The notes under the pieces were generated by a model. That model worked only from the letters and a program-made list of their open reading frames with translations, was not told the DNA's origin and searched no databases. DNA of 46,345 nucleotides. Origin: an archaeon (lineage in GTDB: Archaea; Nanobdellota; Nanobdellia; Woesearchaeales; GW2011-AR9). The position numbers were made by a program, and so were the translations under genes. The stretch is from the NCBI GenBank assembly GCA_023259115.1, contig JAHFQW010000003.1, forward strand, positions 1 through 46,345, written 5' to 3'. Positions 25,949 through 31,511 of the stretch are shown here, in pieces (the stretch's first letter is position 1; every line of letters starts with the position of its first letter).

Positions 25949-26105
25949 TGGTGGACCTGCCCGGACATTCTCACTAGCGTTCGAGGCATTATCGCCTCGG
26001 GCGCTAATATTTGAACCGGGGACTAACGCCTCACTTATCTTTATGATTGTAAGGGCGCTGTCATCTACGATCTCTGGGTAGAGATAACCGCTAGACCACA
26101 GGTCC
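25949..26105 (-). tRNA. tRNA-Val(UAC) with three apparent introns and encoded CCA
   Basis: Acceptor arms GGACCTG (26105-26099) and CAGGTCC (25959-25953) pair over 7 bp, followed by discriminator A and an encoded CCA (25951-25949). Anticodon UAC is at 26051-26049 in a CTTACAA loop closed by GCGCC/GGCGT. The T stem is CCCGG/CCGGG with TTCAAAT loop. Three insertions interrupt the cloverleaf: 21 nt at 26084-26064 (between D loop and D-stem 3' arm, with TCTAC/GTAGA ends), 16 nt at 26047-26032 (the canonical 37/38 site) and 44 nt at 26008-25965 (between T loop and T-stem 3' arm, with TAGCG/CGCTA and GAGGC/GCCTC stems). Removing them leaves exactly 76 nt. Exact splice points can slide by a base. A TTTTTAAAT box lies about 30 bases upstream. 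Confidence 0.85.
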
Positions 26106-29609: not shown

Positions 29610-31511
29610 GTGGTTTCTGAGACTAATTCAACGATGAAGATGACAATGAAGACGACAAAGCAGATTAAGATTCCGGCAAAGATTGTAGATCGAGTGCTGG
29701 GCCAAGATGAGGCGGTGAACATCATTCGCAAGGCGGCACAGCAGCGACGGCATGTACTATTAATAGGAGAACCGGGTACGGGGAAGAGTATGCTGGGTTT
29801 GGCGTTGGCAGAGTTGCTGCCTAATTCTGAATTGAAAGATCTGTTGGCGTATCAGAATCCTAATGATGAGAATAATCCGCAAGTGCGGGAGTTTGCGGCA
29901 GGTAAAGGACGAGAAGAAGTGAAGAAGCATACGTTAGATAGCAACCAAGTTCTGAAGAATAATAATATTTTGTTGTTTATTGTGGCGTTATTGACGTTTA
30001 TTGCGCCGTGGTGGGTGAGATATCATTACAAGTCGGATTTGATGTTTACGGCATTTTTCTTAGGTGGAATGTTATTTTTAGCGGCGTTTTCGATTATGTT
30101 GAGCATGGGGCCGAGGATGTTTAAGATGCAAAATGTTTTGCTGCCTAAAGTGATTGTGGATAATTTTGGACGAAAACAAGCGCCATTTTTTGACGCGACG
30201 GGAGCACATGCGGGAGCGTTGCTCGGAGATGTGTTACATGATCCATTCCAGTCAGGAGGATTAGGAACGCCGGCGAATCAGCGCGTGGTTGCAGGAATGA
30301 TTCATAAAGCGCATTTAGGAGTATTATTTATTGATGAGATTGCGACGTTGCATCCGCGAACACAGCAAGAGTTGTTGTCAGCATTACAGGAGAAGAAGTT
30401 TCCCATTACGGGTCAGTCCGAGCGATCGGCTGGAGCGATGGTGAGAACAGAGGCGGTGCCTTGTGATTTTGTATTAGTGGCGGCGGGCAATCCTGAGACG
30501 ATTAAGAATATGCATCCGGCACTACGCTCTAGAATTCGAGGGTATGGTTATGAAGTGTATATGAATGATACGATGCTTGATACGCCGGAGAATAGAGGCA
30601 AGATTGCGAGATTTGTGGCACAGGAAGTGGTGCGTGAAAATGGAAAAATACCACATTTTGATGAGGAAGGAATTAAAGTGATGATTGAGGAAGCGCGCAA
30701 GCGAGCGAATAGAAAAGGGCATTTGACGTTACATTTACGTGGTTTAGGGGGGCTTGTGCGAGCGGCGGGAGATTTGGCAAAAGAGGAAGGAGCCGAGTTT
30801 GCAACACGTACGCATATACGAGAAGCGTTAAAATTAGCACGACCATTGGAACAGCAAATGGCGGATAAATATATTGAACGTAAAAAAGAGTATGAAGTGA
30901 TTATGACAACAGGTAAGCAAGTGGGTCGAGTGAATGGGTTGGCGGTTATTGGCGGCGGCGATACGATGGCATCGGGCATTTTATTACCTATAGAGTCTGA
31001 AGTGACAGTAGGAGGTAGAAAAGCAGAAATTATTGCAACGGGAAAATTGGGTGAGATTGCTAAAGAGGCGGTAAAAAATGTTGCGGCGATTATTATGAAG
31101 TATTTTGGGGAAGATATCAAAGAGACACGAGATATTTATGTGCAGTTCTTGCAGACGTATGAAGGAGTGGAAGGGGATTCCGCATCGATTGCGGTGGCAA
31201 CGGCAATTATTTCGGCACTCAAAGAAATTCCGGTGAAACAAGATGTGGCGATGACGGGGTCGTTGTCGGTACGTGGAGAGGTATTACCAGTGGGGGGAGT
31301 ATCTGCGAAAGTAGAGGCAGCAATTGATACAGGAATTAAGACAATTATTGTGCCTAAATCGAATTTACAGGATATTGTAATTGAGAAAACGAAATTGGAG
31401 AAAGTGAAAATTATTCCAGTGGAACATATTGAGGAAGTGTTAGAGCATGCGCTGGAGTGGAGCGGCAAGGCGGCGTTGAAGCAGAAGATATTTCAACAAA
31501 AAAAGAAGTGA
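29610..31511 (+). CDS. lonB: Membrane-bound ATP-dependent protease LonB
   Basis: LonB degrades membrane and soluble proteins using ATP. The AAA+ domain carries Walker A GEPGTGKS (residues 53-60) and Walker [14 protein letters not shown]. Two transmembrane helices are inserted between them ([35 protein letters not shown]), as in archaeal LonB. The C-terminal Lon protease domain has the catalytic Ser in [12 protein letters not shown] and Lys in [14 protein letters not shown]. Length, 633 aa, is typical. The GTG start at 29610 lies about 26 bases after TTTTTAAAGG, so the message is probably leaderless; ATG codons from 29634 are alternatives. Confidence 0.95.

Follow-up and report, generated by a model that had tools for sequence, protein, structure and literature searches.

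The window, i.e. the whole stretch of 46,345 nucleotides analysed here, belongs to a Woesearchaeota genome, in agreement with the DPANN-like host assumed in the original prediction, and carries on its minus strand a gene for tRNA-Val(UAC). As had been proposed, the 157 nucleotides of this gene reduce to 76 upon removal of three introns of 21, 16 and 44 nt, one of which is located at position 37/38 and the other two at non-canonical sites in the D-loop and the T-loop. The features of the locus are listed below; the splice sites are uncertain by 1-2 nt, since the intron ends can slide.

25949..26105, minus strand: tRNA-Val(UAC) gene, encoded CCA included, 157 nt; an intronless orthologue is found in genome G004
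26085..26105, minus strand: exon 1, tRNA positions 1 to ~21; nt 1-22 of the mature query match 26084-26105 at 100%
26064..26084, minus strand: intron 1, 21 nt, D-loop ~21/22; 6-bp hairpin ATCTCT/AGAGAT, last exon base included
26048..26063, minus strand: exon 2, located by mature-sequence search
26032..26047, minus strand: intron 2, 16 nt, canonical 37/38; bulge-helix-bulge with central helix CUUA/UAAG
26010..26031, minus strand: exon 3, located by mature-sequence search
25966..26009, minus strand: intron 3, 44 nt, T-loop 59/60; intron family R1 (match 25960-26020, 90.7 bits)
25949..25965, minus strand: exon 4, including the discriminator A and the CCA (25951-25949); several Val(UAC) orthologues are likewise followed by a CCA

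The spliced product and its orthologues

The spliced 76-nt product, GGACCTGTGGTCTAGCGGTTATGACAGCGCCCTTACAAGGCGTTAGTCCCCGGTTCAAATCCGGGCAGGTCCACCA, is identified by ARAGORN as tRNA-Val(tac) with a complete cloverleaf. The same program calls no tRNA in the unspliced 157-nt gene and finds nothing when introns 1 and 2 are excised and the T intron is left in. Rfam scans of the window and of the Val locus returned neither a tRNA match nor, at the gathering or a relaxed threshold, a match to a group I or group II self-splicing intron, and the Val introns, with lengths of 16-44 nt, do not qualify as members of these groups. A weak Rfam match to CRISPR-DR16 at the locus reflects just an intron hairpin. 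A purpose-written intron-tolerant scanner, blind to the coordinates of the Val finding, placed the locus at the top of a 21-kb minus-strand stretch with a score of 54.1 (runner-up: 33.9).

In about 20 relatives that possess a Val(UAC) gene, introns are present or absent at the same three sites:

no introns: G004
anticodon intron alone: G174, G016, G183, G175, G024
D intron alone: G173, G006
T intron alone: G188, G185, G186, G184, G010
D and anticodon introns: G017
anticodon and T introns: G022, G009, G007, G018
all three introns: the source genome, G002, G190

The intronless gene of G004 exhibits 87% identity to the mature Val sequence over 71 nt, and introns at the same position as intron 1 occur in G002, G017, G173, G006 and G190, while most other relatives lack them. 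This coming and going of introns at the same sites provides strong comparative support for all three inserts being introns, and we infer that they are indeed spliced.

It is very improbable that the locus is a decayed tRNA gene broken by insertions, with another gene supplying tRNA-Val(UAC). Standard tools do see no tRNA at the locus and the assembly (1.57 Mb in 54 contigs, an estimated ~96% complete) leaves room for a missed copy, but excision leaves perfect exons, almost every other tRNA gene of the genome is interrupted likewise, and no second copy, which the original prediction had itself named as grounds for its rejection, was found by a whole-genome intron-tolerant scan combined with a mature-sequence search. 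That the exon match is a chance product of the tolerant scan, which tries many cut positions and tolerates one intron per arm, can be dismissed almost with certainty, as it is refuted both by the orthologue of G004 and by the reversed-genome control, in which no candidate reaches 42, whereas the 40 real genes of the genome score at least 47.2.

The self-complementary intron ends noted previously were confirmed in so far as each intron contains a hairpin. A textbook splice-site motif, however, is seen at 37/38 only, where the bulge-helix-bulge comprises two 3-nt bulges around a central helix of 4 bp, an outer helix of 6 bp and an inner helix of 2 bp. At 59/60 the T-stem forms the outer helix and T54-C56 pairs with GAA of the intron; the bulges are 3 nt long and one further A is left unpaired. 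With 3 bp of central pairing plus the unpaired A, this motif is a relaxed one. The motif at the D-site is not a standard bulge-helix-bulge.

tRNA introns and splicing enzymes of the genome

The intron-tolerant scan of the whole genome revealed 40 tRNA genes for all 20 amino acids. As many as 37 of them are interrupted, by 72 introns in total (1.8 per gene), a count that may be low, because the scanner is limited to a single intron in each arm and to intron lengths of up to 115 nt. One intron is present in 9 genes, two in 21 and three in 7, and the introns are distributed among the anticodon arm (30), the T-arm (27) and the D-arm (15). The uninterrupted genes are those for Cys(GCA) and His(GTG) and one of the pair for Trp(CCA). 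For 17 amino acids all the genes found contain an intron, hence the cell must splice. Within this extraordinary intron-bearing set the Val(UAC) gene is nothing unusual; the original prediction correctly saw a three-intron tRNA-Val in a DPANN archaeon, but missed the genome-wide intron load and the membership of intron 3 in R1. In a relative, G035, 13 of the 15 tRNAs found in 340 kb scanned are intron-bearing. The Rfam tRNA model detects 8 genes in the source genome and 3 to 30 genes in each of 24 other genomes of the family.

An intron segment complementary to the exon T-loop at a minimum of three of four positions is present in 25 of the 27 T-arm introns, compared to 17% expected for random tetramers. 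However, in minimum-energy folds of the T-arm segments assigned to 59/60 the central helix forms in 9 of 25 and is absent from 16, and none is textbook; with so few central helices the motifs must be regarded as relaxed and the splice sites as predictions.

Several individual tRNA genes deserve mention. The two Trp(CCA) genes (C25:29623-29693, minus strand, and 30095-30244, plus strand) lie 0.4 kb apart on opposite strands, and one of them is intronless and differs from the other. A tRNA-Ile with the predicted anticodon UAU, as opposed to the CAU tRNA-Ile usual in archaea, is encoded at C23:44642-44790 (minus strand) and also at locus L199. Intron-bearing Lys(TTT), Asp(GTC) and Tyr(GTA) genes form a one-strand cluster at C7:60450-61171, and the T-arm intron of Tyr on C7 and of Asn on C23 apparently sits at ~53/54 instead of 59/60. 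In genome G293 (L177, minus strand, ~1205-1610) an intact intronless Ser(GGA) gene lies inside the apparent V-arm of an intron-bearing Ser(GGA) gene, flanked by a 16-bp inverted repeat; an assembly error is possible there.

The genome contains an RtcB gene and one splicing endonuclease gene (C38:14.9-15.7 kb), which encodes 216 aa from the likely start. Residues 46-111 match PF02778 and residues 122-208 match PF01974, i.e. the N- and C-terminal domains of the alpha subunit, and their union in one subunit of ~180-220 aa, encoded by one gene, corresponds to the alpha4 type. The protein aligns collinearly with the Methanocaldococcus jannaschii enzyme (1A79), and the Crenarchaea-specific loop with its conserved Lys, the 9-residue insertion of A. 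pernix 3p1z_B, is absent from the alignment. Its closest solved structure is the catalytic subunit of N. equitans (3iey_A, E=5e-42), while its best matches among named genomes come from Woesearchaeota metagenome-assembled genomes (MAGs). A broad-specificity endonuclease of a known type, which the original prediction had called for, was sought and not found: there is one alpha-type gene, no beta gene and no Crenarchaea-specific loop. Efficient removal of introns with relaxed motifs has been ascribed only to (alpha-beta)2 and epsilon2 enzymes (reviews: PMC6379350, PMC4033280), an alpha4-like endonuclease has been reported to cut mainly canonical motifs (PMC6379350), and intron richness has been linked to loop insertions in the endonuclease (PMC12397907). 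The Woesearchaeota clade appears not to fit this specificity rule, and either a divergent partner has been missed, or an alpha-type enzyme achieves broad specificity in some other way.

A divergent second subunit, unseen by profiles and giving a heterotetramer as in Nanoarchaeum equitans, is in our opinion unlikely, yet it is a serious contender: beta subunits can be short and divergent, and the closest solved relative is precisely the N. equitans protein. On the other hand, the endonuclease query also finds the N. equitans beta subunit (E=3e-14), so that a beta subunit of that type would have been detected, PF01974 has exactly one match in each of 26 genomes, and the source genome has a single PF01974 and a single PF02778 match, with no second subunit detected. 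The next-best ORF of the genome, on C48, was considered as a second subunit, but its match (E=0.08) was unconvincing when read. If a single alpha-type enzyme does act by another route, its charged N-terminal tail is a candidate for the source of broad specificity; the intron-rich relatives G032 and G034, whose endonuclease open frames span 184-185 aa, argue against such a role by the shortness of their enzymes. An AlphaFold model calculated without an alignment reached a pLDDT of 40 and was left out of the evidence. In one Woesearchaeota MAG (L173) the endonuclease gene is split between two reading frames, owing to a sequencing error or a broken gene.

Intron family R1

The 44-nt T intron of Val has counterparts in the T-arms of three other tRNAs of the source genome, Arg(TCG), Ser(TGA) and Ser(GCT), and resembles T introns of Thr, Ser and Phe tRNAs in other genomes. 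We represented this family, R1, by a covariance model of 61 nt of the T-arm built from nine copies. In the R1 structure 97.9% of cells are paired and 18 cells have double changes, compared to 5.7 in shuffles; the structure was taken from one of the nine copies and counted on the same nine, and the covariation thus amounts to support, not to an independent test. Within the order, 56 of the 353 genomes contain R1; a draw of 371 genomes from the phylum yielded 37 with the intron, just three of them from other orders. In all, R1 has been traced through 47 genera. Nearly all of the 50 matches retrieved are held by T-arms of tRNAs. In the genomes G283 (L198) and G294 (L199), R1 T-loop introns of 91 nt and 96 nt, respectively, contain an additional nested hairpin.

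Among 49 aligned members, which cover 24 anticodon types and 27 genomes (some multi-copy genomes were hand-picked), the nearest relative resides in the same genome in 18 cases, compared to a shuffle mean of 2.2 and with none of 2000 shuffles as high, whereas the same nearest-neighbour test on the 49 members reveals no signal of the host anticodon (P=0.33). A mean-identity test was also run and found within-genome identity only slightly raised (P=0.08); the clustering signal comes from the nearest-neighbour test. For 14 pairs of R1 introns that are at least 90% identical and interrupt tRNAs for different amino acids, the T-stem likeness is 3.36 of 8, compared to 3.49 for all pairs, and in G332 an identical intron is found in Gln(CTG) and Ser(CGA), whose T-stems differ. 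An R1 relative is present also at 37/38 in tRNA-Ile(GAU) of the source genome (28.3 bits, E=9e-7), and a tRNA of G253 has an R1 intron apparently in the anticodon arm. Homologous introns across isotypes characterize transposed tRNA intron families of the Thermoproteales type, and R1 exhibits this property; judging from the sequences, its introns seem to have moved without flanking exon sequence.

Taken together, we consider it very probable that the Val(UAC) gene is functional and harbours three protein-spliced introns of the bulge-helix-bulge type in an intron-saturated Woesearchaeota genome, where a single endonuclease and RtcB process the transcripts and R1 spreads between tRNAs. At each junction of the precursor, the 3' segment of the intron would pair with exon sequence immediately upstream of the cut; the single endonuclease, probably a homotetramer, would cut both intron ends, and RtcB would ligate the exons. 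At 59/60 the T-stem would serve as the outer helix and the universal T54-T55-C56-R57 as the exon half of the central helix, hence the same landing site would be available in every tRNA, through which R1 could colonize many of them as a precise unit, its movement being most simply explained by reverse splicing followed by return to DNA. We advance more tentatively, at somewhat less than even chances, the stronger proposal that a single-subunit endonuclease devoid of any known specificity loop copes with relaxed sites in almost all tRNAs, and that a 44-nt non-coding T-loop intron passes from one tRNA to another, and from genus to genus, as a precise mobile unit at the RNA level.

Ordinary DNA gene conversion between T-arms, as opposed to movement of precise intron units, is a less likely cause of the spread of R1. 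The near-identical T-loops of different tRNAs could seed recombination, and copies from the same genome are often nearest neighbours, but T-stems flanking near-identical introns show no excess likeness over all pairs, so conversion tracts would need to stop only a few bases from the splice sites, and an R1 relative occurs also at 37/38, where the exons differ. It is still more doubtful, and indeed improbable, that the T-loop introns are ancestral to each tRNA and inherited vertically with no movement. The R1 intron in Val(UAC) of G188 is 93% like that of the source genome, as vertical inheritance would have it; however, R1 similarity does not track the anticodon, the T introns in Val(UAC) of G002, G009, G010, G018 and G185 differ in sequence or length, those of G004, G016, G017 and G174 are missing altogether, and the Gln and Ser tRNAs of G332 share identical introns.

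Comparison with known systems and implications

Among known systems, a close match is found in Thermoproteales, whose tRNAs likewise have up to three introns of the bulge-helix-bulge type at 37/38 and in the D- and T-arms, including 59/60. However, Thermoproteales possess alpha plus beta endonuclease with the Crenarchaea-specific loop, and the Woesearchaeota (DPANN) genome has one gene. With 72 introns in 40 genes it matches or exceeds Pyrobaculum calidifontis, with 71 introns in 46 tRNA genes (PMC8450103), although the comparison is approximate, as our scanner is not tRNAscan-SE. In Thermoproteales, similar introns in different tRNAs have been read as gain by transposition (2010 work, as summarized in PMC4090602 and PMC4033280); R1 is alike in this respect, but it is a different intron in another lineage, described by one covarying 61-nt T-arm model in 47 genera, with one relative at 37/38, and comparison of the T-stems indicates that its flanks were not carried along.

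The view that three-intron tRNAs are known chiefly from Thermoproteales is outdated, as 92-95% of tRNA genes are interrupted in the Asgard groups Atabeyarchaeia and Freyarchaeia, often at non-canonical positions and more than half of them with several introns (PMC11291895). The Woesearchaeota genome resembles them in the heavy interruption, the frequent use of non-canonical sites and the common occurrence of several introns per gene, but these groups are not DPANN, and the passages of PMC11291895 consulted give counts and positions, with no mobile intron family. Closer by lineage are Nanoarchaeum equitans and ARMAN (Micrarchaeum), DPANN archaea with disrupted tRNA genes and with (alpha-beta)2 and epsilon2 endonucleases (PMC4033280, PMC12397907). 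The Woesearchaeota catalytic subunit is closest to that of N. equitans, but neither a second subunit nor a loop insertion was detected in the genome analysed here.

In the literature searched we found no description of tRNA introns in Woesearchaeota. As far as that literature shows, the kind of phenomenon is known; new are the host lineage, the number of introns, a mobile family that can be traced, and an endonuclease at odds with the rule. Extreme disruption of tRNA genes, known from Thermoproteales and two Asgard groups, thus reaches an order of DPANN archaea that is both large and uncultured. As the standard Rfam model recovers just 8 of the 40 tRNAs, errors are to be expected in the tRNA counts and codon-decoding tables of this order, and in its genome-quality scores as well. 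Since the clade appears to break the rule, the need of relaxed introns for a heteromeric or loop-bearing endonuclease becomes directly testable. Finally, R1, with its matched copies in different tRNAs and its unshared flanks, constitutes a useful natural system for studying the movement of archaeal introns.
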